Shown: positions 8,712 to 40,598 of the stretch, in pieces
Numbering within the stretch: the first letter of the stretch is position 1
Layout of the letters: each line of letters starts with the position of its first letter
IMG/VR virus record: IMGVR_UViG_3300024262_000082
Span: 1 to 40,598 of that record
Strand: one strand, 5' to 3'
Length of the DNA stretch: 40,598 nt
DNA from: a virus
Made by a program: the position numbers and the translations under genes
Notes under the pieces: generated by a model
What the model saw: only the letters and a program-made list of their open reading frames with translations
Told to the model about the DNA's origin: nothing
Database searches by the model: none

Positions 8712-9074
8712 TTATGAGTTGGGTAGAACTACATCATTCGAAACCCCACCACCACCAATATTTCCAGGACCATTATAATCTGTTGGAACAGGTTGTTGAT
8801 TAGTGTAAGAAGGATTCATAGGCACTTTCATTTCTCCGTCACCTTTTCCACCACTTATAATTTTACTTGCGGGTACAGAAAAATTGTGTCCTTTTCTTAT
8901 TGTACCAACATCTTCGACTGCAATGACAATATATTGATTTGAATTTGGTACTTTATTATGAACGGTGATAGGAACAACTACTCTTTCTTCAGTTCCAGGT
9001 ACTTTAACTAAGATGTTGCCTTTATCCCCGTTACCAAAAGATTCAAATAATTCGTATGTTTCTAAATATTTCAT
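8712..9074 (-). CDS. small protein with capsid-targeting-like N-terminus, 120 aa
   Basis: It begins MKYLETYELFES, a member of the MKxxxxFE-type tag shared by many proteins in this window. A small beta-rich domain follows (residues ~20-75, ILVKVPGTEERVVVPI...YIVIAVEDVG). The tail from ~85 is low-complexity Gly/Pro/Asn (MKVPMNPSYTNQQPV, then GGGG). It lacks the KYNL end. A TATATATAAC box sits 3-4 bases before the ATG. It is the last of four tagged genes on the minus strand. Function is unknown; packaging into the head is an inference from the tag. Confidence 0.8.
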   Translation of the reverse strand: MKYLETYELFESFGNGDKGNILVKVPGTEERVVVPITVHNKVPNSNQYIVIAVEDVGTIRKGHNFSVPASKIISGGKGDGEMKVPMNPSYTNQQPVPTDYNGPGNIGGGGVSNDVVLPNS

Positions 9075-9077
9075 AAG

Positions 9078-9088
9078 TTATATATAAA
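9078..9088 (-). promoter_or_regulatory. TTATATATAA promoter box close to start
   Basis: On the minus strand TTTATATATAACTTATG runs straight into the ATG at 9074. Such spacing would give a nearly leaderless message if the box is a -10 element. Confidence 0.45.
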
Positions 9089-9089
9089 A

Positions 9090-9410
9090 TTATAAATTGT
9101 ATTTTTCTTGCTCTTTAAATAAATCTGGATTATCAATAAATTTTAACATTTCATCATAATCTTTAACTTTGAAATATTCTTCATCATCCCCACCTTGTTC
9201 AAATTTTATTGTAAACCATCCATCTTTGAAATAAAAATCATATATCCAAATATAATATCCTTCACTATCATCTTCTTTTGTGCCAAGTTTCCAATATAAA
9301 TATTGTTTAACTAATTCATCTAATATTTCTCTATCTTTAACATTAGTTCGTATTCTTTGATCCCAATCATTAACATTTTCAAATAATTTTAAGTGTTTCA
9401 TAAATTTCAT
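9090..9410 (-). CDS. tagged small protein ending KYNL, 106 aa
   Basis: It contains MKHLKLFENVN at the N-terminus and ends EQEKYNL, so it has both the N-terminal tag and the C-terminal motif. The body is acidic and aromatic (YYIWIYDFYFKDGWFTIKF) and looks like a small alpha/beta domain. Two starts are possible. ATG 9410 overlaps the upstream TGA as ATGA and gives MKFMKHLKLFE; ATG 9401 gives exactly the tag MKHLKLFE seen at 16459. Translational coupling favours 9410, tag position favours 9401. No known family recognised. Confidence 0.8.
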   Translation of the reverse strand: MKFMKHLKLFENVNDWDQRIRTNVKDREILDELVKQYLYWKLGTKEDDSEGYYIWIYDFYFKDGWFTIKFEQGGDDEEYFKVKDYDEMLKFIDNPDLFKEQEKYNL

Positions 9411-9733
9411 AAATTATATTTACTTGCTTCTAATTCCATTTTATATTGTTCAATTTCTTCTGGTGTTAAATATTTTAATATTTCATCTTGTGTGAAATTT
9501 ATTTTATGCCCGTTGCTAATCACAACTTCAAAAGGAAATTCACCATCATTTCTCCATTTTGTTACTTGACCATAAACTTCTTTTGTGTCCTCACTTAAAT
9601 CTAATTCTCTTTTAGCTTCTTCACTAAAATCATCAATGGATGCTAAAATATAAGAGCCTAATTTCCAACTATCATCTTCACCTGTTTCTTGACTACTCCA
9701 ATCAACTTCTTCAAATGATTTTAAATGCTTCAT
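9407..9733 (-). CDS. tagged small protein ending KYNL, 108 aa
   Basis: It starts MKHLKSFEEVDW and ends SKYNL. The second half (GQVTKWRNDGEFPFEVVIS, FTQDEI, then LTPEEIEQYKMELEASKYNL) resembles by eye the same region of the gene at 36046 (TEDEI, SEDKLEEYQLKISADKYNL) and the end of the one at 38036. This suggests a shared SH3-like beta-barrel followed by a helical tail. It overlaps the gene below it by four bases and the gene above it by one base, so the four tagged genes are translated as one unit. Confidence 0.82.
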   Translation of the reverse strand: MKHLKSFEEVDWSSQETGEDDSWKLGSYILASIDDFSEEAKRELDLSEDTKEVYGQVTKWRNDGEFPFEVVISNGHKINFTQDEILKYLTPEEIEQYKMELEASKYNL

Positions 9734-10065
9734 TAGAAATCTGATTTATTTTCTGCTTTAATTTCGACTAGATTGCTATCACCCCAATCATAGATATCAT
9801 CCCATACAGAAAAACTACCTTCTTCATCTGATTTCTTTTCTTCTAATCGTGTAATAATATCATTTAATTCTTTCCAAGATTGTGTTTTTTCTTGAATGAT
9901 GTTTTGATTATTTCTTAAGAAATTAACATAGGCTATATTAAATTGTTCAAGAGTAACTTGACCTTTATCATATTGGTTCCACATCTTAGAAACATCAATA
10001 CTAAGTTTCCAATCATCTTCAACTTCTTGGCTTTGTTCCAATATAAAATCGCTATATTTTTTCAT
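9733..10065 (-). CDS. tagged small protein with T4-like capsid-targeting N-terminus, 110 aa
   Basis: The N-terminus MKKYSDFILEQSQE is the closest in the window to the T4 internal-protein capsid-targeting sequence MKTYQEFIAEA, including the hydrophobic-x-E end where the T4 prohead protease cuts. The rest is acidic and helical with several Trp residues (DDWKLSIDVSKMW, SVWDDIYDW). It ends NKSDF, so it lacks the KYNL motif. It is first in a four-gene minus-strand unit, with an AATATATAAC box directly before the start. The head-internal role is inferred from the tag only. Confidence 0.82.
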   Translation of the reverse strand: MKKYSDFILEQSQEVEDDWKLSIDVSKMWNQYDKGQVTLEQFNIAYVNFLRNNQNIIQEKTQSWKELNDIITRLEEKKSDEEGSFSVWDDIYDWGDSNLVEIKAENKSDF

Positions 10066-10069
10066 ATAG

Positions 10070-10080
10070 TTATATATTAA
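10070..10080 (-). promoter_or_regulatory. TTAATATATAA promoter box close to start
   Basis: The minus strand reads TTTTAATATATAACTATATG into the ATG at 10065. It probably drives the four tagged genes. Confidence 0.5.
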
Positions 10081-10105
10081 AATTGTAAAGAGAAAAAGAG
10101 GAAGA

Positions 10106-11008: not shown

Positions 11009-11059
11009 TTTAAAGGTTTGTTTTATATTATTACTACAAATTCTATACCATATTCAAAT

Positions 11060-11779
11060 TTATTTGTAATTTTGGGTAATAAACGCAATATAATTTGTTA
11101 CACCTTTATTATTAAACATTCCACCATAATACTTAACTCTACCTATACCAGCATTATATGAAGCTAATGTGTGTTCCCATGCTTCTCTTTCGATATTTCC
11201 TGAAAAATTTATTTTTTGAATTTTATCATACCAATGTTCATATAATTCTGCTAACATATATGTACCAATATATATGTTTTTTTCTTCTGTATAAGGTTTT
11301 TCATTAATATTAAGTCTTTGACAATACCATTTGTAAGTTCTTGGCATTAATTGCATAAATCCATATGCACCTACATTCGATATTGCATTATTATAAAATG
11401 ATGATTCTTGTTTAACCAGTCTGAACATAATATCAATAGGTATATTTTTAGAAATTGCTTCTTCATACATATATCTAATAAATTCTGGATTGACGTGATC
11501 GGGTATTTTAATTGATGATTCTTGTTCTATCATCCAATACAGATATTCATTTGATTCTAATATGTTGAATAGTGAGTCTGCGACTTGTTCTTCTGATTCA
11601 ACTTTATAATTGAGTGTGTAAATTTCAGATTTTAATTCAACCACTTCTTTTTTATGGCTTTCTTTGATGTTCTTAGTTATCAGAATAGAGAAGGTGATGG
11701 TTGTTAATAAAAGAATTATCATTATTGCGATAATCCATTTTAATTTTTTGGTAATTTTTTCATTTTTCATAATTTTCAT
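11060..11779 (-). CDS. membrane-anchored lytic transglycosylase (SLT domain)
   Basis: The C-terminal ~150 residues are a soluble-lytic-transglycosylase domain: FRLVKQESSFYNNAIS with the catalytic Glu, then GAYGFMQLMPRT, then YIGTYMLAELYEH and LASYNAGIGRVKYYGG. It would cleave peptidoglycan between MurNAc and GlcNAc. The N-terminus has a positively charged start and one transmembrane helix (WIIAIMIILLLTTITFSILI), then a short coiled coil. I chose ATG 11779 (MKIMKNEKITKK). The reading frame extends back to a TTG at 11806, and ATG 11770 is also possible. A membrane-tethered SLT next to a lipoprotein suggests host envelope lysis or entry rather than a tail-tip enzyme. Confidence 0.88.
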   Translation of the reverse strand: MKIMKNEKITKKLKWIIAIMIILLLTTITFSILITKNIKESHKKEVVELKSEIYTLNYKVESEEQVADSLFNILESNEYLYWMIEQESSIKIPDHVNPEFIRYMYEEAISKNIPIDIMFRLVKQESSFYNNAISNVGAYGFMQLMPRTYKWYCQRLNINEKPYTEEKNIYIGTYMLAELYEHWYDKIQKINFSGNIEREAWEHTLASYNAGIGRVKYYGGMFNNKGVTNYIAFITQNYK

Positions 11780-11859
11780 TATTTTTTCATCATAAAGAGT
11801 GCCCAAATCACTTTACCAACATATACTCTTTAAAATTAAAAAACTATCCCGATACCCTT

Positions 11860-12034: not shown

Positions 12035-12040
12035 ATTGTC

Positions 12041-16444: not shown

Positions 16445-16455
16445 TTAATATATAT
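16445..16455 (+). promoter_or_regulatory. TTAATATATAT box close to start
   Basis: TTTTTTAATATATATTATATG runs into the ATG at 16459, again a box almost touching the start of a tagged gene. Confidence 0.4.
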
Positions 16456-16458
16456 TAT

Positions 16459-17013
16459 ATGAAACATTTGAAATTATTTGAAGCACATAATTCAAAAGTA
16501 AATGAATTATTAGATGGAATTTCACCAGATTTTTGGAAAATGGTAAATACTGCTAAATGGTGGTTAGTGATAAATGCAGGTCGTGAATTTTATAATAAAG
16601 TAGATACCCAAGGTATTAAAAAAGAGGCAGAAAAACGTTGTAAAGCCAGAATTTATACCAATTATGAATATGAACGAGTTAAACATTTTCATGATGAGAT
16701 GCATATTTTATATAAAAGATTACATGAATATTTTAAACCATATTGGCTTGGTGAAAAGAAACTACCAGGATATCGAGATGGTTATAGTGTGAGTGATGAT
16801 GGATATTGGGATTTGTTGTCATCCGTAATAGGTAAAGGAAAACTTTGGGTTATTAAATGTATTAAAGATCCTTCTTTACCAGCAGAGATGGTAAAAACAC
16901 ACAATTATGCGGAAAATTTTAGTTATTTACTAAATGTTGATAAGAATGATTATGATGAAATTAGATTTGAATTTGACCCACTTTATCGAGAAACAGAAAA
17001 ATACAATTTATAA
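16459..17013 (+). CDS. tagged protein ending KYNL, 184 aa
   Basis: It begins MKHLKLFEAHN and ends RETEKYNL, carrying both tag and C-terminal motif. The middle is helical and basic with Trp and Tyr-rich helices (ISPDFWKMVNTAKWWLVIN, then HDEMHILYKRLHEYFKPYW). It contains two histidines in KHFHDEMH, which could bind a metal, but no known catalytic pattern is complete. It follows the split polymerase by 18 bases and is closed by a strong hairpin terminator. Unknown family; packaging is inferred from the tag. Confidence 0.82.
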   Translation: MKHLKLFEAHNSKVNELLDGISPDFWKMVNTAKWWLVINAGREFYNKVDTQGIKKEAEKRCKARIYTNYEYERVKHFHDEMHILYKRLHEYFKPYWLGEKKLPGYRDGYSVSDDGYWDLLSSVIGKGKLWVIKCIKDPSLPAEMVKTHNYAENFSYLLNVDKNDYDEIRFEFDPLYRETEKYNL

Positions 17014-18348: not shown

Positions 18349-19317
18349 ATGCAAGAGTGTTTTTTAATAACCACATATTGTGATACTGAAGAAAAAAGTG
18401 ATGTTTTAAGAGATACAATAAAATCCTTAGATAAGTCTAACCTAAAAATGTGTGTACACGCACATTATCCATTACCTGTTGATATTCAAAAGAATGTGGA
18501 TTATTATATCTACGATTCTTCAAATCCTATTATACCATTCGGTACAAGAAGTATAATAGTGTGTAGAAAGATGAATAATTATCAGATGAATATTTTAAAA
18601 CGAGATTATGGTTATACTGTTGTTTCACAATGGAGACAAGGTTTGTTGTTTTTAGATAAATTAGGTTATGATAAAGTGCATGTATTAAATTATGATACTA
18701 TAGTTACAGACAATCTTATAGAGAATACTAAGAATAATTATTCCGCTACCTTCTATTTAAAAAATACTGAAGAAATAAATTTATTATTTGGTACGATTTG
18801 TCCATCTGATTATCTAGATGTTATAAAATCTATGACAATGGAAGATTATATTTTTATGAATGAGTATTGGTATGCCGAGAAGTATTTTTATGATAAATTT
18901 AAAGGCAACAATCTTATGTTAGAAGATAAATTGTCAGATATATTGAGACATCAACCATATGAACTTGATGTTTATAAACTTGATGGTTATAATATACATT
19001 TTGGTGAAAGAATTAATTGGATTGATGGTGAGAAAATATATACAGATAAATACACTTTTATGTTTTATAATGTTAATAATGAATTAGATTTTAAAATATT
19101 TAAAGGTTATGAACTTTATAAGCATGAAATTATAAATGATTTTAGTGTAATAGATACTGACATCAATACGGAAGATGTTAAACAAAGTTTTGGATATTGG
19201 AGTGGTAATGAATTTATTAAAGGTAATAGTTTTATTAAAGTTTTAATAAATGATAAAATGTTAGATGAGAACATCACATCTAATTTTTGTATTAGTGCAA
19301 TAGAATATAATGTGTAA
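18349..19317 (+). CDS. glycosyltransferase-like protein, copy 1 of 3
   Basis: It opens QECFLITTYCDTEEKSDVL, then VHAHYPLPVDIQ, and a VLNYDTIV segment that probably replaces the DxD metal site of GT-A enzymes. The same frame of motifs (ITxYCD, H-A/S-H, DIQxKV, Y(T/A)V, NYD) appears in the genes at 20058 and 21098, so this is a triplicated family. The last ~80 residues are a separate beta-rich segment. It leads the glycan operon 82 bases after a divergent gene and ends one base before the radical SAM gene. Glycosyl transfer is inferred from fold-like features and context, and the donor sugar is unknown. Confidence 0.75.
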   Translation: MQECFLITTYCDTEEKSDVLRDTIKSLDKSNLKMCVHAHYPLPVDIQKNVDYYIYDSSNPIIPFGTRSIIVCRKMNNYQMNILKRDYGYTVVSQWRQGLLFLDKLGYDKVHVLNYDTIVTDNLIENTKNNYSATFYLKNTEEINLLFGTICPSDYLDVIKSMTMEDYIFMNEYWYAEKYFYDKFKGNNLMLEDKLSDILRHQPYELDVYKLDGYNIHFGERINWIDGEKIYTDKYTFMFYNVNNELDFKIFKGYELYKHEIINDFSVIDTDINTEDVKQSFGYWSGNEFIKGNSFIKVLINDKMLDENITSNFCISAIEYNV

Positions 19318-20043
19318 ATGGAAAAGTTAAATATATTTCAAATAGAACTAACAAGTAGATGTAATGCATCCTGTTCATATTGTCCTCACAGTTCACTTAC
19401 TCGAAAAAAAGAAGATATGTCTAAAGAGACTTTTAATCAGGCATTAACTTTAATTAATAGAAATAACTTGTGGAAAAATATGGATAACTATGTAGTTGAA
19501 CTACATTCTTTTGGTGAAGCATTTCTATTAGGTGAAAAGTTATTTTATTTTTTAGATAGAATGAAGGAGGAAAATATACCTTGGGGATTAAGTACAAATG
19601 GTATTTTATTAGGACATAACAAAGAGTTTGATAAGAAATTGTTATCTTATAATGGAGTATTAGAAATTTCTGTTGAAAGTATAAATTCTAAAGTTACAAT
19701 AGAAGATAAGTATCAGAAAATAAATGAATATTTGGAATTACATATAGAGTCAAAATCAAAATTGATAAACATATTAATATCATATGGTAATGTGGATTTT
19801 TCAAAAATTACTGGATGTGCAGGAGTATCAAAATATGAGTTGCATACTTGGGGTGAAAACGATAAACCTTACACTTCTTGTAAATTTTTACAGGATAATT
19901 TTTTCACTATTCAAAGTAATGGAAATATTGTTAGTTGTTGTGTTGATGCAGATGGTGAGACAAATTTTGGCACAGTTTTTAATCCAACATTTGAACATAA
20001 TAAAAGATGGCGAAAATGTAATACTTGTCTTGGTGGATTATAA
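19318..20043 (+). CDS. radical SAM enzyme with SPASM-like C-terminus
   Basis: C15-x3-C19-x2-C22 in LTSRCNASCSYC binds the radical SAM [4Fe-4S] cluster. GEAFLL and STNGILL match later radical SAM strands. The C-terminus has a SPASM-like cysteine set: SCKFLQDNFFTIQSNG, then VSCCVD, then CNTC, likely binding one more cluster. Such proteins modify peptides or sugars; in glycan clusters they act on nucleotide sugars or carrier proteins. It is short at 241 residues. It sits between glycosyltransferase copies 1 and 2, starting one base after copy 1. Confidence 0.88.
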   Translation: MEKLNIFQIELTSRCNASCSYCPHSSLTRKKEDMSKETFNQALTLINRNNLWKNMDNYVVELHSFGEAFLLGEKLFYFLDRMKEENIPWGLSTNGILLGHNKEFDKKLLSYNGVLEISVESINSKVTIEDKYQKINEYLELHIESKSKLINILISYGNVDFSKITGCAGVSKYELHTWGENDKPYTSCKFLQDNFFTIQSNGNIVSCCVDADGETNFGTVFNPTFEHNKRWRKCNTCLGGL

Positions 20044-20057
20044 AAATAAGAAATATA

Positions 20058-24003: not shown

Positions 24004-24007
24004 AAAT

Positions 24008-25246: not shown

Positions 25247-25250
25247 AATT

Positions 25251-28880: not shown

Positions 28881-30840
28881 TTATATTTTAACATCATAAT
28901 GACTAAATTGTATAGAAGATGATGCACGACCAGAGGATAGAGTTCTTAACTTAGTTTCATATCCAAAAAGTTTACTCAAAGGTGCTTCAATTTTTATAGA
29001 TTTGTCAATAGATAATATTTGTCCATTTCTCTTATTTAAGTCTGATATTATTTCACCAATATACTCTTCAGGTGTCACAATATCTAACTTCATTATAGGT
29101 TCTAATATAGTAGGATTTATTTTTTTAGTTGAATTTCTAAAGGCGATGTTAGCCACAGTCTCAAAGGAAATTTCATCAGAATCAGAATTAAAAGTACCAT
29201 CTACCAATGTTATATTTAAATTATCTACTGGGTAACCAAGAATTCCATTTAACATACACATTTTGAAACCATTCTCAACTGAATTAACAAATTCTAATGG
29301 TAGATTACTTTGGTTTATGAAAGTTAATCCTTCATTTTGAGAAGGACCAATTTTAATAGTAATATCAGCAAATTTATCATTTTTGAAATATGTTGATTGT
29401 TTTACTGCATCACCTATCTTTCTTTCAAATATTTCTCTATGTTCAATTTCTTTGGTATAAGATTCTCTATAAGCAACAATTGGAACGCCTTTGTTTACTT
29501 TTATGTTGTGATCTAATTGCATCCTTTCTATTAATATTTCAAGATGCAATTCGCCCATACCACTTATTATAGTTTGACCATTTTCTTCTTTTGTGATGAA
29601 TGTTGGATCTTCATCTTCAAATATTTTTAATACTTCTTCTAATTTTTTAATATCAGATTGTGTCATTGGCTCAATTGCTATACCTATAACTGGTTTAGGG
29701 AAAATCATCGATTCTAAAAACATCGGATTATTTTTACCACATAACGTATCGCCCGTTTTTGTATTTTTTAATCCAACAACCGCACATATTTCGCCAGCAT
29801 TAACAACTTTTTTAGATATTTGTTTATTTGCATGAATTTCAGATAACCGCATAACTCGTTCTTTTTGCTTAGTTCTGGAATTATAAATAACATCCCCAAG
29901 TTTTATTGAACCTGAGTAAATTCTTAAATAAACTATTCTATTATCATATTTGTCGGTAGAAACTTTAAAAGCTAATGCAACTAATTCTTTTGTATCTTCT
30001 TTTGGTTCAGGTAGATATTCTACAATTGAATCTAATAAAGGTTGAATACCTTTATTTTTTAATGCTGAACCAACAAGAATAGGGGTACATTTTAAGTTGA
30101 GTGTTAGATCTTTTAATGTATTATGAATTTCACTAGTAGTTATTGAATTTTTATCATCAAAGAATTTTTCGAGTATAATATCATTATTATCTGCAAGTTT
30201 TTCTAACATTATATTTCGCCATTCGTTTGAAATTTCTAACATTTCATCAGGAATATCATTGTAAGTATAATTTAAACCTAATTCATCTTCCCAAGTGATT
30301 AATTTCATTTTAATTAAATCGATTACTCCTTTAAATTTGGATTCTGAACCGTAAGGTATCTGTATAACAATAGTGTTGGCGTTTAATTTGTTTTCAATTT
30401 CTTCGACTACTTGATAAAAATCCGCACCAATTCTATCTATTTTATTTATAAATGCTATTCTTGGTACTTTATATTTATTTGCTTGTCTCCAAATATTTTC
30501 TGATTGTGCTTCGACACCACCAACAGCACAAAAAACAGAAACGACTCCATCTAAAACTCTTAATGATCTTTCAACTTCCGCTGTGAAATCAATGTGTCCT
30601 GGAGTATCTATAATATTTATTTTGGTATTATTCCAAAATGTTGTAATAGCGGTGGATGTAATTGTAATTCCTCTTTCACGTTCTTGTTGTGTCCAATCTG
30701 TGGTTGTGTTTCCATCATGTACTTCACCTAGGATATGATTTATTCCTGTATAAAATAATATTCTTTCTGTAACGGTGGTTTTTCCAGCATCTATATGTGC
30801 GGCTATACCAATGTTTCTTATGTTGTTAAAATCGTTTCAT
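28881..30840 (-). CDS. fusA: elongation factor G, interrupted by an apparent +1 frameshift after codon 4
   Basis: A near-complete EF-G of 652 residues after frame correction (host forms ~690-700). The GTPase motifs are [38 protein letters not shown] and VGSALKNKG; domains II-V follow to the C-terminus. The reading frame is open throughout but has no ATG, GTG or TTG until 30308, deep inside the G' region. ATG 30840 reads M-K-R-F-stop. A +1 slip at UUU-UAA-C joins it to N-N-I-R-N-I-G, just the expected EF-G start. Domain IV carries [14 protein letters not shown] where hosts have DGSYHDVDSSE, so the conserved tip His is missing. It is either recoded, mutated or a sequencing error. Confidence 0.85.
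30826..30831 (-). other. putative +1 frameshift site UUU-U-AA
   Basis: On the minus strand the early codons read AUG AAA CGA UUU UAA C. Phe-tRNA on UUU can re-pair perfectly with UUU one base on, skipping the UAA, and the next codon AAC enters the EF-G frame. It parallels the CUU-UGA-C site of prfB. No Shine-Dalgarno-like stimulator is seen upstream. Confidence 0.45.
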
Positions 30841-32173: not shown

Positions 32174-32965
32174 ATGATTTTAACTAAAAATGTTGATGTT
32201 AAAATAATAAACCATAATATAAAACATTATTCAAATTTAGGGTATAATGTAAAATGTGGCAATACTATTACAATACCTATTAAACACTTAACAAAAGGAT
32301 CACATTATAAAATAAAAGTTAAATGTGATTGCAGCGAAATCGTTGATATCAAATATCAAGATTATATTAAAGTGTTTGAAAAAAACGGCAAATATTTGTG
32401 TAAAAATTGTCGAATTAATAATTTACCTAAAAATAATATAAAATATAAAAATAAAATGAACATCAATAGAAAAACATCAGTTCAAAATAGATATAATGTA
32501 GATAATGTTTTTCAATTAGATGAAGTTAAAAATAAAATAGAAAAAACACATATAAAACGATATGGAGTAAAACATTTTAGGCAAAATGAGAAAATCTTGC
32601 AGAAAGAAAAATTTAATAGAATAAGTAAAGGTAGTCAGATACCTGATAACAAGTTAAGTGATTATAAATTATATAAAAAAGTTGTTCTTAAATATACAAG
32701 AAAAAACTTAAAATTGTTATATGAAAAATGGGATGGTTTAGATTATTATGATGGTGAACTAATACAAGAATATAAAAAATTACATTTCAATGATGATAGA
32801 TATCCACACATAGACCATAAGATTTCGATTTTTAATGGTTTTAAAAATAATATCGTTCCACAATTAATTGGTAATATTGATAATTTGTGTTATACAAAAA
32901 GAATAAATAATTTATCTAAGGGTAAACTATTCTCAGAACCAAAAAAAAAAAATATTAAATGTTAA
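32174..32965 (+). CDS. HNH-type homing endonuclease
   Basis: The middle holds repeats of the RYNVDNVFQLDEVKNKIEKT, then RYGVKHFRQNEKILQKE kind that are typical DNA-binding units of phage and giant-virus homing endonucleases. The C-terminus has an HNH-like block: PHIDHKISIFNGFKNN, then IGNIDNLCYTKRINNLSKGK. A zinc-like pair C-x-C and C-x2-C (KCDCSE, CKNCR) lies at ~50-80. It is wedged between two tagged genes and overlaps the next by seven bases; a 12-base A run at 32941-32952 near its end could be a sequencing or slippage spot. Confidence 0.85.
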   Translation: MILTKNVDVKIINHNIKHYSNLGYNVKCGNTITIPIKHLTKGSHYKIKVKCDCSEIVDIKYQDYIKVFEKNGKYLCKNCRINNLPKNNIKYKNKMNINRKTSVQNRYNVDNVFQLDEVKNKIEKTHIKRYGVKHFRQNEKILQKEKFNRISKGSQIPDNKLSDYKLYKKVVLKYTRKNLKLLYEKWDGLDYYDGELIQEYKKLHFNDDRYPHIDHKISIFNGFKNNIVPQLIGNIDNLCYTKRINNLSKGKLFSEPKKKNIKC

Positions 32966-34881
32966 ATTATAAGAATTACTCCCTAGTGTTAGAGTCCGCA
33001 CCAAGAATACCTGTTGATGTTGAGTATTGGAAAAAGAAAGGCAAAATAGGTAAAGATGTTTGTCTTATATTTCATGATGATCTTGATGGAATAACAAGCG
33101 CAATTTTAATGAAAAATTGGTTATTGAATAAAGGTTTCACTATTAAGAAATATGCTATTATTAATTATCAAGAATCTTGGGAAGCATTGAAATTGGATCC
33201 TAAATTAATTAATATTGCATTAGATTATGCGGAAGATGCTGATGATGTTGATGTTTATATGGATCATCATGGTTCGTTTGAAGAAGAAGTAAGATTAAAA
33301 CAACAGAAAAAATCTATTAAAACAAAGACTGGTTCTGCGGCAGAAGGTATTGCACAACAAATTGGTGTTCCTTTTGGTCAAGAAACTAAAGATTGGATTG
33401 ATATGATTGATTCAGCCAAGTATGATTATTATGATGTTAATATAAGTGATATTTTAAATTTTAACTTAAAAGAAATTTCAAAGGATAAAAATTCAAAATT
33501 GAGATTTGCATCTGCATTTAATCAATTGTTGAAGCGTTCAGATTATACCACTTTTATTGAAGTGGTTAATGCGTCAAAGAGCCCATCAATTTTTAATTTA
33601 TTTAGATTATTTAAAATTTTCTTTCCTAAAAATAATCCTAATTGGAAATCAGGTGAAGAAGCAGAATTTGTTGAAGATGCAAGACAACGATTAACAACAA
33701 TGCAACAAAGAACAAGAGGTAAATGGGATGACGATGGAAAGACAGTATGGACAGATTATAAGGATTTCTGGGAACAATATTCAAAAAAAGTTGTAGGACA
33801 ACAAAAAGAAGATGGTTCTGATGTTTGGAAATTACAACCTGGTTCATATCAAATTATTAATAATTTGATGTTTGTACCTTCAGGAACTTGGGCAAATGCA
33901 CTTAGAGCAAAAGCAATTTTTGTTGACGATATAAAAAGTGGTATGGTACCAAGTGGTAACACTAAACTTAATTTTGTATTATTACAATATGGAAATACTT
34001 TACAATGTGCTGATTTAGTCACTAAAATTAAAGATATGAAAGAAGAAGATTTGCCAACATTAAAAAATGGTGATAAAATATCTAATTTAGGTAAATATAT
34101 GAGTGGATTGGTTGCTAATTTTGAAAAATATTTAGATTATCACGATAAAAGAACATTTCATGGTGGACATGATGGTATAGGTACAATTTCAAATATCTTT
34201 GGTAAATGTACAGTAAAACCTTACATTGGTGTTAAATTTTTAGATTTATTTAAGAATAAAGTTATTGCAGATTTATCTGGTATTGAATGGTCATTAGCAA
34301 TGCCTTGGAATGATGAAGAAGGTACTCCATCAGTAAAAGAAGAAGATATTAATCAAAGAATGTTAGGATCTGATGAAATTAGAACTGAAAAAGATGCTAT
34401 GCGTGAAAAGAGAGAGCGAAGATATTTGTCTTGGTTAGTACTTAAAAATGAATGGGATCGTGTCAATCAGGATGATTTTAAAATACCTACTATGAAAAAA
34501 ATCTACACATTCTTAAAAAGAAATGCTCCTAATTTGATGTATAGTGATATGTTTAATTCTAAAGATTTAGAGAAGGTTTGGTTTAAAGATAAAGATAGAG
34601 ATGAGGCTGGACTATTAAGAGCAGGTAATGATTTGTTTAGTTCGGGTATCTTTGATGATTTTGTACATCACTTTGGTTATGATACTGATGATGATAATAA
34701 CCAATATGCTAATTTCGATAATATTCTTTATGCCCCTGAAAATTCAAACGAAAGAAAGAAGAAACGTAAAGAAGCTAAGAGATTAATGACTCTTATTGGA
34801 CATATTATGAAAGGAAGTTATATTTCTGATGATAGAGAAAAATATGAGCAAGAGTATAAAAAATGGAGAAATAAAAAGTAA
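32959..34881 (+). CDS. DHH-family phosphoesterase-like protein with tag, 640 aa
   Basis: The N-terminus MLNYKNYSLVLESAPRIP fits the tag pattern with a V-L-E end. The DHH motifs are present: FHDDLDGITSAI (H39, D40, D43) and VYMDHHGS (D102, H103, H104), the metal-binding signatures of RecJ/NrnA-type phosphoesterases. The remaining ~500 residues are unlike RecJ and of unknown fold, though a later FHGGHDGIGTIS (near 400) resembles the GGH-type substrate loop of DHHA1 domains. Substrate is unknown; nanoRNA, cyclic dinucleotide or ssDNA hydrolysis are options. It is large for a tagged protein, and it may be carried in the head (inference). Confidence 0.8.
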   Translation: MLNYKNYSLVLESAPRIPVDVEYWKKKGKIGKDVCLIFHDDLDGITSAILMKNWLLNKGFTIKKYAIINYQESWEALKLDPKLINIALDYAEDADDVDVYMDHHGSFEEEVRLKQQKKSIKTKTGSAAEGIAQQIGVPFGQETKDWIDMIDSAKYDYYDVNISDILNFNLKEISKDKNSKLRFASAFNQLLKRSDYTTFIEVVNASKSPSIFNLFRLFKIFFPKNNPNWKSGEEAEFVEDARQRLTTMQQRTRGKWDDDGKTVWTDYKDFWEQYSKKVVGQQKEDGSDVWKLQPGSYQIINNLMFVPSGTWANALRAKAIFVDDIKSGMVPSGNTKLNFVLLQYGNTLQCADLVTKIKDMKEEDLPTLKNGDKISNLGKYMSGLVANFEKYLDYHDKRTFHGGHDGIGTISNIFGKCTVKPYIGVKFLDLFKNKVIADLSGIEWSLAMPWNDEEGTPSVKEEDINQRMLGSDEIRTEKDAMREKRERRYLSWLVLKNEWDRVNQDDFKIPTMKKIYTFLKRNAPNLMYSDMFNSKDLEKVWFKDKDRDEAGLLRAGNDLFSSGIFDDFVHHFGYDTDDDNNQYANFDNILYAPENSNERKKKRKEAKRLMTLIGHIMKGSYISDDREKYEQEYKKWRNKK

Positions 34882-35527: not shown

Positions 35528-35537
35528 AATATATAAA
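35528..35537 (+). promoter_or_regulatory. AATATATAAA box close to start
   Basis: AATAATATATAAAATATG runs into the Nudix ATG at 35540. It heads the long operon of tagged genes. Confidence 0.45.
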
Positions 35538-35539: not shown

Positions 35540-36049
35540 ATGATAACAAAATTTAAAATATTTGAAAGTGTACAAGACGATATTGGTTTTGGTGTTGGCG
35601 CTGAATATACAAATGATTCTGGCGAATTGTTTTGGGGAAATCTTGGAGCAGGAATATTACCTATTTGTAAATCGACAGGTAGAATATTGGTGGCATATAG
35701 AGGGCAATTTGTAAATGAACCACATACTTGGGGTATTTTTGGTGGAAAATTAGATGAGGAATCCAATGAAGATGATTTACAGGAAGTTGCTAAGAGAGAA
35801 TTCGTTGAAGAAACAGGATTCAATGGTGGTATTAGACTTATTCCAGCCTATATATATAAAGCAAAAGGATTTGAATATCATAATTTTATAGGTATTGTGG
35901 ATGATGAATTTGAACCAGAATTGGATTGGGAAACAGAAAAAACTAAGTGGTTGAATTTTGATGAGTTTCAAAAATTATATCCAAAGCATTTTGGACTTAA
36001 AGCATTAATACAAAATGATTTAGATAAAATAAAAATGTATTCTAAATGA
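35540..36049 (+). CDS. Nudix hydrolase with capsid-targeting-like tag
   Basis: It begins MITKFKIFESVQDD, the tag, then a Nudix fold: TWGIFGGKLDEESNEDD, then the catalytic REFVEETGF of the Nudix box (one residue longer than the standard spacing between Gly and Arg). It cleaves nucleoside diphosphates linked to another group; substrate cannot be told from sequence. The tag comes before the first strand, as an added N-terminal segment. It leads the operon to at least 40598 and overlaps the next gene by ATGA. A tagged enzyme implies delivery into the head and then the host cell (inference). Confidence 0.9.
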   Translation: MITKFKIFESVQDDIGFGVGAEYTNDSGELFWGNLGAGILPICKSTGRILVAYRGQFVNEPHTWGIFGGKLDEESNEDDLQEVAKREFVEETGFNGGIRLIPAYIYKAKGFEYHNFIGIVDDEFEPELDWETEKTKWLNFDEFQKLYPKHFGLKALIQNDLDKIKMYSK

Positions 36050-36381
36050 TAAAGAAATTTTCAATATTTGAAAAAAGTATGATTGATTCGAATGGTGTAT
36101 TATTAGATTCTCCATTTTTAATTACAAATAATGAAAATTTACCAGAAGATGCAACATTTAAGATAGGTGATTATGTACATTTAAAAAATGTATCGAAATT
36201 TTTTTATAAAATAAAACATTATTATAATAAACCTCCTTATCCTTATGAATGTTTTATTGTGTCTTATCCACATGAAGATTTTAGTAAAACGTGGGTAACT
36301 GAAGATGAAATAGTTTTAATATCAGAAGATAAACTTGAAGAATATCAACTAAAAATAAGTGCAGATAAATATAACTTATGA
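36046..36381 (+). CDS. tagged small protein ending KYNL, 111 aa
   Basis: It starts MIKKFSIFEKSM and ends SADKYNL. The region KIGDYVHLKNVSKFFYKIK to WVTEDEIVLIS looks like a small SH3-type barrel, then LEEYQLKISADKYNL as a helix. The protein at 9407 has the same order of elements, so they are probably homologous. The KYNL codons AAA-TAT-AAC-TTA run into TGA, which overlaps the next ATG. No known function. Confidence 0.82.
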   Translation: MIKKFSIFEKSMIDSNGVLLDSPFLITNNENLPEDATFKIGDYVHLKNVSKFFYKIKHYYNKPPYPYECFIVSYPHEDFSKTWVTEDEIVLISEDKLEEYQLKISADKYNL

Positions 36382-36800
36382 TAAAGAAATTTGAAATATT
36401 TGAGAGTCCTGATACTATATCTTTTTCTAAGTTTTTATCAGATCCTGAATTACATTGGACAGATGAAGATGCTAGAGCCTTTGGATATTATAAAAAAGAT
36501 TTTATGTTACATAAAGGTACTCATACAAGTAGATGGCGACAAGATTATCCTGGTAGGATTTGGTTAGATTCGAAGATTATATCATTTTGGGAATATCCTG
36601 AAAATAAGAAAAAACTTAAAAAAATTATAACTGATATTGAAAATAGAATTAAACAAAATATCTGGAATCAAGGTTGGCAAATAGAAATACTTTGGAATGA
36701 TAGTTCTAAAATTATACCTTTAGAAGATTATGAAAATGCTGAAGCTCATGAATTAGATAAACCCCCAACATGTATTATCCCCATTACTAAAAGTGGGTAA
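36378..36800 (+). CDS. tagged small protein, 140 aa
   Basis: It begins MIKKFEIFESPDT, nearly the same tag as the gene before it, and overlaps it by four bases. The body has many aromatic residues (YPGRIWLDSKIISFWEYPE) and a helix (KKLKKIITDIENRIKQNI), ending PPTCIIPITKSG rather than KYNL. It may have diverged or lost the C-terminal motif. No family recognised. Confidence 0.8.
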   Translation: MIKKFEIFESPDTISFSKFLSDPELHWTDEDARAFGYYKKDFMLHKGTHTSRWRQDYPGRIWLDSKIISFWEYPENKKKLKKIITDIENRIKQNIWNQGWQIEILWNDSSKIIPLEDYENAEAHELDKPPTCIIPITKSG

Positions 36801-36861
36801 TAATAATATTAAATCTAAAAGAATCCCATTAGAATTAAGACAAAAAATATATCAAGAAAAT

Positions 36862-38046
36862 ATGATAACACAATTTAAAAATTATGTATTGGAGAGTAGT
36901 TCATTTCAAACAACAAAAGATTTTTTAGTTGATTTGATAGAGAATAAAAAAGGTTTTGTGCGAATGAAACGAATGAAAGAAAAATTTATTGATTATTTGA
37001 ATAGATTATATGATTTTTCAGAAGATAACCAAACAATAGAGAAAAAAGAACTAACACAAATTAAAAACGCTTTTGATAAATTGTATGGCACTTATTATGG
37101 TGGTGATAAATCATTTCATGATAAAAGAGATTCTGATTTAAAACAAATTGCTAAAAATAAAGGAGTTTCAGTTCATGCGTATGAAAATCCTGACCCAGCA
37201 ATTCGTGCATTAGGACATATGTTTAATTATGGTATGAGTGATGCTAAAAGAAACCTTGATAAACTTAATGGTGTAAATTTTACAGATGAAGAACAGGTAT
37301 TTGTTGATAAGTATTATTCAAATTTTGATAAATGGTTAGATTTGAATGATAGGATAGAAGAAATTAGAAAAATTTTAAATCCTACCGCAGACGAGAGAAG
37401 GAAAAAAGAATTACAACAAATAAAAGGCAAATTAAATCCTAAAATTAAAAAAGTTATTGATGAGATTGCCGAAAATTTTAGACAAGTTATTGAGAAAAAT
37501 GAATTAGATAGTTATGAACGTGCTCTAAAAAGATTTAGAGATAAATATGGAGATACAATATCTTATGAAGAAACCACAAAAATAATTGACCGAAGAAGAT
37601 TTGATTGGCTTGGTGGTATAAATCATAGTTTGTATGTTAAATCAAAAGATGCTCCAAAATATTCTTATAATTATGATTTAGTGTTGATTTCAAATTATCA
37701 AGAGAAGATAGAAGAAGTAGCAAAACTTGTAAGTTATGAAACTATTGCTAAATTTAAAGGAAAGATGTATGATAAAATTGGTGGTATGGTTACAGATATT
37801 GATAAAGAGTTTGAAGTTGAAGTTCAAGGTGGTAATTGGACTTATAATGATATCTTTTTTACCTTTGAAGATGGCTCAAGATTTTCAATTAGAAATAAGA
37901 TAGTTAGTAATGTAAATCAATATAATACATTCTATTATACATATCCAACAACATTTCACGAAGCATATTTACCTAATGGTGAAAAAATACCAGCACCGAA
38001 TGAATATACGGTTAAAAAAGCATTTAATGATTATTATGAAAATTAA
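36862..38046 (+). CDS. tagged helical protein, 394 aa
   Basis: ATG 36862 gives MITQFKNYVLESSSFQ, the T4-like form of the tag with a V-L-E end. A GTG 69 bases upstream is in frame but would bury the tag at residue 24, so it is not used. The body is long, charged and helical (residues 40-250, for example KKKELQQIKGKLNPKIKKV), and the last ~120 residues are beta-rich (YSYNYDLVLISN...FEVEVQGGNWTYNDIFFTFEDG). No enzyme motif was found. It overlaps the next gene by 11 bases. Confidence 0.8.
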   Translation: MITQFKNYVLESSSFQTTKDFLVDLIENKKGFVRMKRMKEKFIDYLNRLYDFSEDNQTIEKKELTQIKNAFDKLYGTYYGGDKSFHDKRDSDLKQIAKNKGVSVHAYENPDPAIRALGHMFNYGMSDAKRNLDKLNGVNFTDEEQVFVDKYYSNFDKWLDLNDRIEEIRKILNPTADERRKKELQQIKGKLNPKIKKVIDEIAENFRQVIEKNELDSYERALKRFRDKYGDTISYEETTKIIDRRRFDWLGGINHSLYVKSKDAPKYSYNYDLVLISNYQEKIEEVAKLVSYETIAKFKGKMYDKIGGMVTDIDKEFEVEVQGGNWTYNDIFFTFEDGSRFSIRNKIVSNVNQYNTFYYTYPTTFHEAYLPNGEKIPAPNEYTVKKAFNDYYEN

Positions 38047-38365
38047 GAAATTTGAAAACTTTGAGTATGATAGTTTTAAAACTAAAATAACAAAAGAATA
38101 TGTGAATAATTATTTACAACTTCAGGAAAGAATATCTACATTAGCATTTGCAATTTATGAAATAGAAAATGATGAAGAATATGATGAAGATGGTGTAATT
38201 GATTGGAATGATACTTGGATAGAGTATTTATTAACAGATGATAAAATAACAGTTTCCCTTTTAAATTTAAATGGTGGTGGAACTTCAGTTGATGTACCAA
38301 CACTATTAGTGTTTGAACCAGATAAACTTGAAGAATATTATGCATCTAAAAAATATAATATATAA
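38036..38365 (+). CDS. tagged small protein ending KYNI, 109 aa
   Basis: ATG 38036 gives MKIKKFENFEYDSF; the longer frame from 37976 lies inside the previous gene and is rejected. Helical first half, then an acidic loop (NDEEYDEDG) and a short beta part (DKITVSLLNLNGGGTSVDV). It ends KLEEYYASKKYNI, like the ends of the proteins at 9407 and 36046 (I/L-E-E/Q-Y, then 6-9 residues, then KYN). Unknown function. Confidence 0.82.
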   Translation: MKIKKFENFEYDSFKTKITKEYVNNYLQLQERISTLAFAIYEIENDEEYDEDGVIDWNDTWIEYLLTDDKITVSLLNLNGGGTSVDVPTLLVFEPDKLEEYYASKKYNI

Positions 38366-38394
38366 TACAGGAGAGCAAAAAACAATAAAGTAAA

Positions 38395-38901
38395 ATGGAT
38401 TATAATAGTGAAGAATATTTGGCACTTTTTAAAAAGATAAAAAATACTGAATCACCTCAACCTCATAATGAGATGTTAAGGGAGGTTCCAAATTATGATA
38501 AACTGGAAAATTTAAATGAAGTTCGCAGACAACCTCAACAACCTCAAAATTTTAATTTAAATGAATTTAATATTGAAACAAGAGTAAATGGTCAAAGAAT
38601 TAATGAAGCAAATCCTAATGGTTTAAATCAGTTTATGGATAATAATTTAAATGAAATTAGACGACACGAAAAACAGGAAAAACTTAATGAGGTGATGAGA
38701 ATTAGAGAACAGGAGAGACTTAATGCTGTTAAACAAGAGCAACACCTAAATGAGTTAAAAAGACAAGAAAAAGAGAGGGAAATGCTAAAGTTGAATGAGA
38801 AAGTTAATTTTAAAGATGTCGATGTAGTTACATTAGATATGTTTAATAGGGCAAACTATAATTCAATGATGCAAGTTGCAAATAAAGTAATACCAAAATA
38901 A
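38395..38901 (+). CDS. coiled-coil protein with LNE-repeat, 168 aa
   Basis: No tag. A Gln/Pro/Asn-rich front is followed by repeats of the L-N-E/A-(V/I/L)-x-R/Q kind (LNEVRRQ, LNEIRRHEKQEK, LNEVMRIREQER, LNAVKQEQH, LNELKRQEKER), which would form a helical rod, and then a short folded end (VDVVTLDMFNRANYNSMM). A real AGGAG-like site (ACAGGAGAGC) lies 20-25 bases before the ATG, rather far for use. It could be a scaffold- or core-type protein (inference). Its stop overlaps the next ATG. Confidence 0.75.
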   Translation: MDYNSEEYLALFKKIKNTESPQPHNEMLREVPNYDKLENLNEVRRQPQQPQNFNLNEFNIETRVNGQRINEANPNGLNQFMDNNLNEIRRHEKQEKLNEVMRIREQERLNAVKQEQHLNELKRQEKEREMLKLNEKVNFKDVDVVTLDMFNRANYNSMMQVANKVIPK

Positions 38902-39263
38902 TGTTGAACTGGAGTCAATTTAATGAAGGATTATTTCTTAGTAAAGAAGAATGGAAAGATAAGATGATAGAACTTATTAAAAAAGAAGGCGCTATTAAGA
39001 AAGATAAATTTGCAAATTGGGATTTAGATACAAAATTTGGCATTTTAAATATAAGATTTGATGTTGATGATGGTTATCCTTCAATATTTATGAAATTTGA
39101 AGAACCTGAAAGATCTAAAGAATTATATGATGTTAACAAAAATAGTGGAAAATGGAATTTGTTCGATAATAATATACAAAACCTTTATTTAACTTTTAAA
39201 CGAAGAATAGATGAAGTTAAACTTACACCTATGGAAAGAACAGCAAAAAAATATAATATTTAA
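38901..39263 (+). CDS. tagged small protein ending KYNI, 120 aa
   Basis: It begins MLNWSQFNEGLF, a less regular tag with N-E in place of F-E, and ends TAKKYNI. The first half is a charged helix (KEEWKDKMIELIKKEGAIKK), the second a small beta part (FGILNIRFDVDDGYPSIFMKF) with a last helix. It belongs to the same tagged operon with one-base overlap to the gene before it. Function unknown. Confidence 0.8.
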   Translation: MLNWSQFNEGLFLSKEEWKDKMIELIKKEGAIKKDKFANWDLDTKFGILNIRFDVDDGYPSIFMKFEEPERSKELYDVNKNSGKWNLFDNNIQNLYLTFKRRIDEVKLTPMERTAKKYNI

Positions 39264-39264
39264 T

Positions 39265-39501
39265 ATGAAAATAAAAAGAATAAATGAGATTAATGGACAT
39301 CCAGAATTGGTTCAATTCATATCAGATATGATAGATGATGCCTATTCAAATGGTGCAAATGGTGAGAATTTAGATTCTTGTACAAATTTAGCTTACCATT
39401 TAGATAGTTCAATATATTCAGATAAAACTATCGAATTATTTAAAGAATTAGCAAAATCGATGTTAGAGGATGTAAAAGAAAATGATCAAATAGAAGATTA
39501 A
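39265..39501 (+). CDS. tagged small acidic protein, 78 aa
   Basis: ATG 39265, one base after the previous stop codon, gives MKIKRINEINGHPEL, close to the tag at 39721 (MKIKRLNEFDNN). The reading frame extends upstream to 39211 inside the previous gene, which is rejected. Helical and acidic with no KYNL end (DQIED). Overlaps the next ATG by one base. Confidence 0.75.
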   Translation: MKIKRINEINGHPELVQFISDMIDDAYSNGANGENLDSCTNLAYHLDSSIYSDKTIELFKELAKSMLEDVKENDQIED

Positions 39502-39731
39502 TGGGAGTAAATGAAAAAATATTTAGTGATTATTATGTAGGACGTAGAGGTATGTACCACAATAAAAATGTTGTGATAACTTCTACTTACTATGATTATG
39601 TTGAATATCAAGATTTTGGATTTAATTTTGATGAATTTACTATTACAATATATTATGAAGATGGTAGTAAGATGTTCACCAGTTTAAAAGGTAATCAAAT
39701 AAAAAGAAATTTGACATTATATGAAAATTAA
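39501..39731 (+). CDS. small hypothetical protein, 76 aa
   Basis: Beta-rich small protein (KNVVITSTYYDYVEYQDFGF, then FTITIYYEDGSKMFTS) without tag or KYNL motif, though the spacing and overlaps (one base before, 11 bases after) make it part of the tagged operon. No family recognised. Confidence 0.65.
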   Translation: MGVNEKIFSDYYVGRRGMYHNKNVVITSTYYDYVEYQDFGFNFDEFTITIYYEDGSKMFTSLKGNQIKRNLTLYEN

Positions 39732-39972
39732 AAGGTTAAATGAATTTGATAATAATGAAAGTATTATTGATGAAAAGGCTAGAAAATTAGCTTGGGAATC
39801 AAAAGAATATGATGAAATTATTCAACAATCAATTAATAATTATGGTAAACAACATGATGAATATCAACCAGATTCTATTTGGAGAGATGGATTTGAAAAT
39901 GGCTTTGTTGAGTGTGCTAGAATTTTTAATATTGAACATATTATAACTGATATAGAAAAATATAACTTATAA
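39721..39972 (+). CDS. tagged small protein ending KYNL, 83 aa
   Basis: It starts MKIKRLNEFDNNES and ends DIEKYNL. Helical, with aromatic residues (SIWRDGFENGFVECARIFN). Overlaps the preceding gene by 11 bases and the next by one base. With only ~65 residues between the two motifs it shows that they can sit on a very small domain. Confidence 0.8.
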   Translation: MKIKRLNEFDNNESIIDEKARKLAWESKEYDEIIQQSINNYGKQHDEYQPDSIWRDGFENGFVECARIFNIEHIITDIEKYNL

Positions 39973-40370
39973 TGAAATATTTGATACCAAATTTTAAAAT
40001 AGGACAAAGATATAATTATGATGATTTACCAAAAGTAACTCAAAATGAAATTGATGTACAATTTGAAGATGAGTATGACGAAAGTGTTGATGATTATCAA
40101 TGGGAATTTAAATATTTACAACCAGAAGATATAGAAGAATATTTGGATAATATATATGGATATAATATTGGAGATGCTTTAGATGATCCATATATGAAAA
40201 AAATTATTAGAAATATTAAAAAAAATGGTATTATGCAACCCGCAGTTGGATTTGAAGGTAACCATCGAGCATTAGCTTGTTGGCATTTAAAAATACCATT
40301 ACCATATTTAGAACCAATTAAAAAACAATATCAAAATAATGAATCACATAGAATCATGGCAAATTTTTGA
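39972..40370 (+). CDS. ParB/sulfiredoxin-fold-like protein, 132 aa
   Basis: The second half, MKKIIRNIKKNGIMQPAVG then FEGNHRALACWHLKIPLP, matches the ParB/Srx-like core pattern: a helix, then I-x-x-P, then a G-x-H-R-x-x-A helix and a strand L-P-Y. Such domains bind DNA or hydrolyse phosphates or CTP; this is a single small copy. The N-terminus MKYLIPNFKIGQRYNYDD is not a clear tag. It overlaps the last gene by 32 bases. Motif-level similarity only. Confidence 0.6.
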   Translation: MKYLIPNFKIGQRYNYDDLPKVTQNEIDVQFEDEYDESVDDYQWEFKYLQPEDIEEYLDNIYGYNIGDALDDPYMKKIIRNIKKNGIMQPAVGFEGNHRALACWHLKIPLPYLEPIKKQYQNNESHRIMANF

Positions 40371-40598
40371 AAGAAAATTTAACTCAGAAAAACGCAAAAA
40401 ATTAGCAGACACAGGTTCAGCGTTGCCTGATGGTTCTTATCCAATTTCGACAAAAGAAGATTTAAAAAATGCCATCAAAGATCAAGGTAGAGGATTAAGA
40501 AATGCTGATGAAAAAAGAACTAAGCAAGTTCATGCACATATTAGAAAACGTGCAAAAGCATTAGGAGTTGAAGTTACAACAAATGATAAAGGAAATAT
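40339..40598 (+). CDS. partial gene: tagged DUF6582-like protein, running off the window
   Basis: From ATG 40339 the frame is open to the end of the window (86 codons seen). It begins MNHIESWQIFERKF, resembling the tag, and goes on with KKLADTGSALPDGSYPI, then DLKNAIKDQGRG and HIRKRAKALG. That A-L-P-D-G-S-(Y/F)-P-I to R-A-x-A-L-G block is a common element in phage head and head-maturation-associated proteins. The 3' end is missing, so its length and other domains are unknown. Confidence 0.7.
   Translation, partial: MNHIESWQIFERKFNSEKRKKLADTGSALPDGSYPISTKEDLKNAIKDQGRGLRNADEKRTKQVHAHIRKRAKALGVEVTTNDKGN

Follow-up and report, generated by a model that had tools for sequence, protein, structure and literature searches.

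The window, a whole IMG/VR record of 40,598 bases (IMGVR_UViG_3300024262_000082), is a fragment of a larger phage genome in which 15 open reading frames (ORFs) can be seen by eye to begin with a short, Glu-ending peptide, here called the N-tag, that resembles the capsid-targeting sequence (CTS) of bacteriophage T4. The original prediction had counted about sixteen such proteins. All the tags that it quoted are present at their quoted starts, including those of a Nudix hydrolase and a DHH protein, but the candidate sixteenth, at 31592 on the plus strand, is weak (score 1.5 with a first, Glu-anchored position weight matrix [PWM], which is unable to use tags of fewer than nine residues and has been superseded by a later one). 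The starts at 9401, 36862, 38036, and 39265 sit within longer mechanical ORFs. A hydrophobic residue stands two positions before the Glu in 13 of the 15 tags (Ile or Leu in 10), the exceptions being 9733 on the minus strand (KSFE) and 38036 on the plus strand (ENFE). What follows the Glu varies: Ser in five tags and otherwise Asn, Glu, Gln, Ala, Lys, Tyr, Gly, Ile, Phe, or Arg. Coordinates are collected in the table.

Features of the window, with the protease-scaffold proteins of two related phages. A slash within a sequence marks the point after the tag Glu; a tag start on the minus strand is cited by the position at which its ATG begins.
Feature	Sequence	Position	Strand	Gene and remarks
N-tag	MKYLETYELFE/S	9042..9074	-	ORF 8712-9074
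N-tag	MKHLKLFE/N	9378..9401	-	ORF 9090-9401, inner ATG of 9090-9410
N-tag	MKHLKSFE/E	9710..9733	-	ORF 9407-9733; Ser two before Glu, not h-x-E (h, hydrophobic)
N-tag	MKKYSDFILE/Q	10036..10065	-	ORF 9733-10065; PWM 6.0, under threshold 7.55
N-tag	MKHLKLFE/A	16459..16482	+	ORF 16459-17013, weak DUF4240 match
N-tag	MLNYKNYSLVLE/S	32959..32994	+	DHH (RecJ-like) protein 32959-34881
N-tag	MITKFKIFE/S	35540..35566	+	Nudix protein 35540-36049
N-tag	MIKKFSIFE/K	36046..36072	+	ORF 36046-36381
N-tag	MIKKFEIFE/S	36378..36404	+	ORF 36378-36800
N-tag	MITQFKNYVLE/S	36862..36894	+	ORF 36862-38046; T4-type spacing F-x-x-Y-V-x-E
N-tag	MKIKKFENFE/Y	38036..38065	+	ORF 38036-38365
N-tag	MLNWSQFNE/G	38901..38927	+	ORF 38901-39263
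N-tag	MKIKRINE/I	39265..39288	+	ORF 39265-39501
N-tag	MKIKRLNE/F	39721..39744	+	ORF 39721-39972
N-tag	MNHIESWQIFE/R	40339..40371	+	ORF leaving record end; PWM only 1.4
C-terminal motif	KYNL	9093..9104	-	ORF 9090-9401
C-terminal motif	KYNL	9410..9421	-	ORF 9407-9733
C-terminal motif	KYNL	16999..17010	+	ORF 16459-17013; next gene convergent
C-terminal motif	KYNL	36367..36378	+	ORF 36046-36381
C-terminal motif	KYNI	38351..38362	+	ORF 38036-38365
C-terminal motif	KYNI	39249..39260	+	ORF 38901-39263
C-terminal motif	KYNL	39958..39969	+	ORF 39721-39972
Promoter-like box	ATATATA	9079..9085	-	11 nt before ATG of tagged ORF 8712-9074
Promoter-like box	ATATATA	10071..10077	-	12 nt before ATG of tagged ORF 9733-10065
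Promoter-like box	ATATATA	16448..16454	+	11 nt before ATG of tagged ORF 16459-17013
Promoter-like box	ATATATA	35529..35535	+	11 nt before ATG of tagged Nudix ORF
Protease-scaffold protein		73913-76336		LR756501
Protease-scaffold protein		225272-227371		LR756502

The part of a B-family polymerase encoded in the window is 58% identical to that of LR756501 (735 kb), the closest of the records compared, 36 to 45% identical to those of LR756502 (642 kb), LR745206 (635 kb), LR756504 (636 kb), and LR756500 (462 kb), and 27% identical to those of the Lak phages. The comparison further includes Chryseobacterium phage MA9V-1, Lak-A1, T4, and viral records retrieved via the DHH protein, among them G001 (330 kb) and G003 (94 kb). 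Gene calls are approximate, with ATG starts only and at least 60 amino acids; Lak ORFs were called with TAG read as Gln. For G001, the PWM, C-terminal-codon, and body-cluster counts cover 280 of the 330 kb, and the T4-spacing, later C-terminal, and box counts cover the whole record.

The later PWM was trained on LR756501, LR756502, and G001, with the tested genome held out of training and a threshold of 7.55; internal-Met pseudo-N-termini of the same genomes served as controls. It marks 9 of the 47 window ORFs versus 2 of 184 controls (Fisher p 1.2e-5) and overlooks 6 of the 15 tags seen by eye owing to start calling, spacing, or the record edge. Tagged ORFs number 68 of 399 in G001 (control, 10 of 1046), 92 of 893 in LR756501 (38 of 3572), 117 of 804 in LR756502 (24 of 2933), 31 of 593 in LR756500 (18 of 1690), and 8 of 214 in MA9V-1 (5 of 1231), a tagged share of 5 to 17% in the four larger relatives versus about 1% of their controls (0.4 to 1.1% over all sets). 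Among the matches listed, 80 viral loci retrieved by DNA encoding MKHLKxxFE, a sample selected for the tag and holding some contigs twice, have 177 tagged ORFs among 810 others (control, 1.89% of 2646), and 60 of the 80 contain further tagged ORFs.

According to PMC9026906, the 10 N-terminal residues of T4 IPIII are enough to have the protein incorporated; within the CTS, positions 4 and 7 are important for targeting and positions 8 and 10 for processing. Cleavage by gp21 occurs after L/I-x-E. The window tag MKKYSDFILE shares Y4, F7, I8, and E10 with the T4 sequence MKTYQEFIAE. A strict T4-spacing pattern, which superseded a loose CTS pattern with a background of 1.1 to 2.5%, picks out in T4, the positive control, 2 of 219 called ORFs, both beginning MKTYQEFIAEA, which we take to be IPII and IPIII. 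The same pattern is found in 50 of 893 ORFs of LR756501 (control, 14 of 3572), 28 of 804 of LR756502 (12 of 2933), 21 of 736 of LR756504 (7 of 2372), and 21 of 593 of LR756500 (1 of 1690), the control rate in these four being 0.06 to 0.41%, as well as in 3 of 214 in the cultured phage MA9V-1 (1 of 1231), one of them beginning MKNFFSFINE, and 2 of 47 in the window (1 of 184). It is not enriched in G001 (6 of 496 versus 7 of 1202), is absent from the 92 ORFs of G003 (control, 0 of 378), and stays at background in Lak (2 of 527 versus 8 of 2572). Most short tags of the MKYIKKFE type fail the T4 spacing. These counts indicate that LR756501, LR756502, LR756504, and LR756500 are rich in T4-like tags and that G001 has mainly the shorter FE form.

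The prohead protease invoked in the original prediction was not found in the window or in G001 to G005, but the S77 domain (Pfam ID PF03420) is matched in six relatives, the five LR records and MA9V-1. The LR756502 domain matches T4 ORF 103562-103912, presumably gene 21, with 29% identity (E 8e-4). In all six relatives it is joined to a long scaffold-like part, and in the five LR records it heads a protein of 632 to 807 amino acids. The rear part in LR756501, LR756502, LR745206, and LR756504 has repeat units like YSEYIAENLDKNI; the motif Y[ILV]AE occurs 12, 11, and 11 times in the LR756501, LR756502, and LR756504 proteins (expected, at most 0.03) and 11 times in that of LR745206. The tag-like motif h-N-E-[SANG] occurs 6, 3, 5, 2, and 16 times in the protease-scaffold proteins of LR756501, LR756502, LR756504, LR756500, and MA9V-1 (expected, 0.35, 0.24, 0.34, 0.41, and 0.96). 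No called protein exceeds these in LR756501, LR756504, and MA9V-1; that of LR756502 ties with a 1891-amino-acid protein, and that of LR756500 does not lead. Within the first 20 residues of other proteins, the same motif is found 43 times in LR756501 (expected, 6.1), 48 in LR756502 (4.5), 22 in LR756504 (5.2), 15 in LR756500 (6.1), and 8 in MA9V-1 (2.4). A second, short S77-like frame lies at 11386-11787 on the minus strand of LR756501 (181 amino acids, 42% identical to the LR756502 domain).

Similar sites immediately precede the conserved region of the capsid protein: HQMNE/N in LR756501, HQINE/N in LR756502, HSINE/N in LR745206, HQIHE/N in LR756504, HELYE/N in LR756500, and both EFINE/A and FLNE/S in MA9V-1. 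These might be cut sites. Ranked by the tag PWM among all internal Glu residues, they are suggestive in LR756502 (109 of 10,737) and LR756500 (176 of 8,559) and weak in LR756501. A PDB sequence search with the LR756502 capsid protein returned no match.

The limits of the tag can be read from one family, that of the DHH protein. The window protein scores 19.9 bits, under the Pfam cut-off, with its catalytic motifs intact. Its N terminus, MLNYKNYSLVLE/SAPRIP, corresponds to MIINFKLFE/SAPRIP in orthologues L001 and L012, MLIKFDDFLFE/SAPRIP in L008, MKNFNEYLEVLNE/SAPRLP in L010, and, with a tag ending in Asp, MKVKEYLLD/SAPRIP in L002 and L003; the LR756501 orthologue, read from a TTG start, begins LIKEFHNFALNE/EASIRFP. 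Tagless orthologues begin M-AAPKLP (L004 to L007 and L011), M-SAPRIP (L009), or M-AAPRLP (L013 and L014). Tagged and tagless forms thus part exactly at the Glu, the tag varying in length and letters and the body remaining constant. A distant LR756502 homologue begins MLRKYGQFINE/E. In a structural model of mediocre quality (mean predicted local distance difference test [pLDDT] score, 61.4), residues 1 to 15 of the window protein have a pLDDT of <50 and the fold begins beyond them; among PDB structures, the best match to the model is a weak one, to RecJ (1ir6; E 4e-4, TM 0.23). Orthologues of the 36862 protein also come in tagged and tagless forms, with a poorly aligned boundary.

Tagged genes are also linked to an upstream box. 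The T4 late promoter is TATAAATA. Among genes with at least 25 nucleotides (nt) of free upstream DNA, TATATA precedes 47 of 52 tagged versus 164 of 369 other genes in LR756501, 76 of 86 versus 161 of 356 in LR756502, 39 of 43 versus 160 of 452 in LR756504, and 19 of 24 versus 68 of 205 in G001. ATATATA stands ahead of 10 of 13 head-region genes, mostly 25 to 35 nt from the ATG, and of none of 4 polymerase genes. At 10 to 13 nt from the ATG, it is found in 24 of 121 tagged versus 19 of 772 other genes in LR756501, 62 of 174 versus 54 of 630 in LR756502, 21 of 61 versus 31 of 675 in LR756504, 13 of 110 versus 3 of 386 in G001, and 3 of 9 versus 1 of 38 in the window; no such link is seen in LR756500 (0 of 31 versus 3 of 562), MA9V-1 (0 of 8 versus 0 of 206), Lak (0 of 12 versus 8 of 515), or T4 (0 of 3 versus 0 of 216). 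With the box as a proxy, the tagged genes may be expressed late, alongside the head genes. Should this box act as a late promoter of the T4 kind, almost no leader would be left on the mRNAs of these genes. In several untagged window genes, the box lies 24 to 34 nt upstream, as opposed to 11 to 12 nt before tagged ATGs, and the window possibly contains two promoter-to-start classes, one of them leaderless.

Taken together, the T4 residue match, the T4-spacing enrichment, the tag-like sites in the protease-scaffold proteins, the DHH boundary, and the promoter link support the original prediction that the window N termini are T4-type CTSs, which, judged from sequence, they quite probably are. As the best explanation of the tags, this reading is well supported; the step from packaged proteins to injected effectors is less certain. 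In such a system, the tagged proteins would be made late, the tag would attach to the scaffold core as the prohead grows, and a gp21-type (S77) protease would cleave behind the tag Glu. The protein bodies would then remain in the head, pass into the next host along with the DNA, and act early, perhaps in anti-defence or take-over.

Several observations weigh against this reading. The CTS quoted for T4 itself scores low on the tag PWM (-0.6), which indicates some difference between the short FE class and the T4 sequence. The hydrophobic residue two positions before the Glu is absent in 61 of 110 G001 tags and, in the PWM register, in 18 of 31 LR756500 tags. Cross-genome homologues of tagged proteins are often tagless, 71 of 129 pairs including a partner that scores <4. 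In LR756500, neither the scaffold enrichment (2 sites, p 0.065) nor the TATATA link (5 of 10 versus 75 of 244, p 0.30) is significant. The LR756501 capsid site ranks only 1310 of 13,359, and many unrelated internal sites outscore the capsid site. Finally, the window holds no head genes, and G001 to G005 contain no convincing protease or capsid gene.

One alternative accepts loading of the prohead core but holds that the cargo mostly aids head assembly or is degraded, with few proteins injected. It is unlikely in view of what the tags are attached to, including enzymes and an Acb1-like protein with no evident role in assembly. The window Nudix domain is clear (PF00293, E 4e-11). In LR756502, MIKKYLEFMKE/S heads a 2H phosphoesterase of Acb1-like type, which has HVT and HIT motifs; in LR756504, MNFYSNFDDFLLE/K heads a relative, and a third relative, also in LR756504, has no visible tag. 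In LR756502, MKKLHRYNSFIKE/S heads a T4-Rnl1-like RNA ligase. PPK2 is tagged in LR756501 and LR756502, a second LR756501 PPK2 being untagged, and the glutamyl-tRNA synthetase of LR756501 bears an N-terminal extension that is absent from that of LR756502. The Acb1-like protein and the RNA ligase would be candidate cargo with a take-over or counter-defence flavour; the PPK2, Nudix, and RecJ-like proteins are further cargo candidates. Moreover, PMC9026906 describes the T4 internal proteins (IPs) and Alt as ejected.

Pfam scans covered 122 of 126 LR756501 candidates of at least 110 amino acids, 94 of 98 LR756502 candidates of at least 170 amino acids, and a third set of 14 window proteins, 67 of 68 G001 candidates, and 25 of the 53 LR756500 candidates listed. 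The first two sets hold chance members (TonB- and histidine-kinase-like) because they were picked by the PWM or the loose pattern. CoaE of LR756501 was discarded as a tagged example: although it is PWM-positive, its T4-type register has Lys at the end. PHROGs searches give weight only to Nudix families, plus a few weak matches. A PDB sequence search with the Nudix protein found no match, and viral-contig scans with it and with the 16459 protein found no relatives.

Many tagged proteins share a second end. A K[FY]N[ILV] C terminus is found in 7 of 47 window ORFs (expected, 0.01), always as K-Y-N-[LI], and in 103 of 496 G001 ORFs (expected, 0.12); 6 of the former (expected, 1.6) and 86 of the latter (expected, 23.3) are also N-tagged. 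Among the matches listed for the 80 loci, a [KR][FY][NGSA][ILV] C terminus is seen in 94 of 894 ORFs, spread over 23 loci, and 81 of the 94 are N-tagged (expected, 27.4). Other lineages have other recurring motifs. In LR756500, [DE]FG[FLY][FLIY] occurs at 12 C termini, 10 of them in N-tagged proteins (expected, 0.9). In LR756501, YGEExW is found in 88 of 893 proteins, 33 of them N-tagged (expected, 14.3); its 102 copies, nearly always DPYGEExW, fall within the first 50 residues (20), at the C terminus (41), or between (41), and DPYGEExW is absent from the other records scanned. The second motif does not appear to be general: the 12 of 92 G003 ORFs ending in [KR][FY][NGSA][ILV], mainly RFG[IL], show no link to the N-tag (2 tagged; expected, 1.3), and the 29 LR756502 ORFs ending in [LI]GI, typically xR[DN]xKLxxLGI and mostly near both record ends, avoid it (1 tagged; expected, 6.8). 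A tentative possibility is that cargo of the window and G001 lineage carries two signals, a cleavable CTS at the N terminus and, at the C terminus, [AST]-x-K-[FY]-N-[IL], which would stay uncleaved and hold or sort it in the head. Other lineages would use their own motif (YGEExW in LR756501, [DE]FG[FL][FLI] in LR756500), motif and receptor would evolve fast by lineage, and about a hundred proteins might be injected per phage.

The lineage-specific, docking-like character of K[FY]N[IL] in G001 and YGEExW in LR756501, together with the 61 G001 tags that break h-x-E, would also suit a docking peptide for some phage structure other than the head, such as a membrane site, a replication compartment, or a phage-made hub. 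This alternative is decidedly improbable, as the tags share the T4 CTS spacing, the protease-scaffold proteins bear the same h-N-E pattern, and the late-type box is common to most head-region genes.

Shared ends might also reflect descent, with all tagged proteins forming one paralogue family. Once stripped of their tags, the 421 proteins tagged in five records fall into 329 body clusters, the largest with 23, 15, and 13 members. There are ankyrin-repeat and leucine-rich-repeat groups (8 and 7, respectively, of 106 proteins scanned from the window, G001, and LR756500), and fast divergence could mask some kinship. Nevertheless, 298 of the 421 bodies are singletons, which tells against a single family; folds as different as Nudix, DHH, PPK2, RNA ligase, and Acb1-like bear the tag, and orthologues gain or lose it, so that this explanation is very improbable. 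The claim that the window proteins are otherwise unrelated holds largely, the 9 PWM-tagged ORFs forming 9 BLAST clusters once their tags are removed, but the proteins of 36046 on the plus strand and 9407 on the minus strand align as distant paralogues (25% identity).

A nucleotide-level signal, such as a translation start or promoter overlap with the peptide as a by-product, might account for the fixed ATATATA box 10 to 13 nt before many tagged ATGs and for the excess of AAC among the Asn codons of the C-terminal motif (42 of 81, versus a genome average of 14%), but is hardly credible, since tag codons broadly follow the synonymous usage of their own genome with modest shifts (the constraint thus looks peptide-level), 70 of 76 occurrences of the C-terminal DNA pattern in G001 lie at in-frame gene ends with F/Y and I/L varying, and the motif also precedes convergent neighbours (9 of 81), which excludes a role for KYNL in starting the following gene.

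Elsewhere in the window, inspection by eye suggests a series of genes at 18349-25973 with glycosyltransferase-, radical-SAM-, epimerase-, and methyltransferase-like products and, at 28881-30308 on the minus strand, a 475-amino-acid ORF resembling the rear portion of elongation factor G and lacking its GTPase domain.

If the CTS reading is correct, at least a tenth of the genes in some of the largest known phages would encode head cargo, and sequence alone would name the injected proteins. Hundreds of hypothetical genes would gain a function class, and candidates for counter-defence and take-over factors could be listed in ranked order; new cargo-loading peptides would become available for phage engineering in laboratory systems; and the question of why huge phages need big heads and genomes would become testable. 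In the literature searched, with partial coverage, no description was found of tagging on this scale, of a repeat scaffold fused to the protease, of the promoter class, or of the second motif; titles and abstract openings, likewise covered in part, yielded nothing on capsid targeting in huge phages and, for jumbo phages, SPN3US only.

Giant phages of the phiKZ/SPN3US type have a prohead protease (gp175/gp245) with the motif S/A/G-x-E and, as here, propeptides cleaved after Glu and many head proteins delivered, according to PMC5694885. There, however, the propeptides are mostly long (several of >100 residues) and end in A-x-E in SPN3US, whereas the present tags have 8 to 13 residues and a hydrophobic or N/F-E ending. 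The Lak huge phages of Prevotella share the huge genome and an S77 protease homologue (43% identical to the LR756502 domain) but show the T4-type spacing pattern at background only. The kind of system is known from T4, where IPI to IPIII and Alt likewise carry an N-terminal peptide of about 10 residues that ends in Glu on unrelated proteins; part of the tag set has the Y/F-x-x-F-I/L/V-x-E spacing, and the relatives have a gp21-homologous protease and a late-type promoter link. The differences from T4 lie in scale (2 of 219 pattern-bearing ORFs versus 50 of 893 in LR756501), in the dominance of a shorter FE-ending variant in G001 and the window, in the fusion of the relatives' protease to a repeat scaffold, and in the second terminal motif borne by some lineages.

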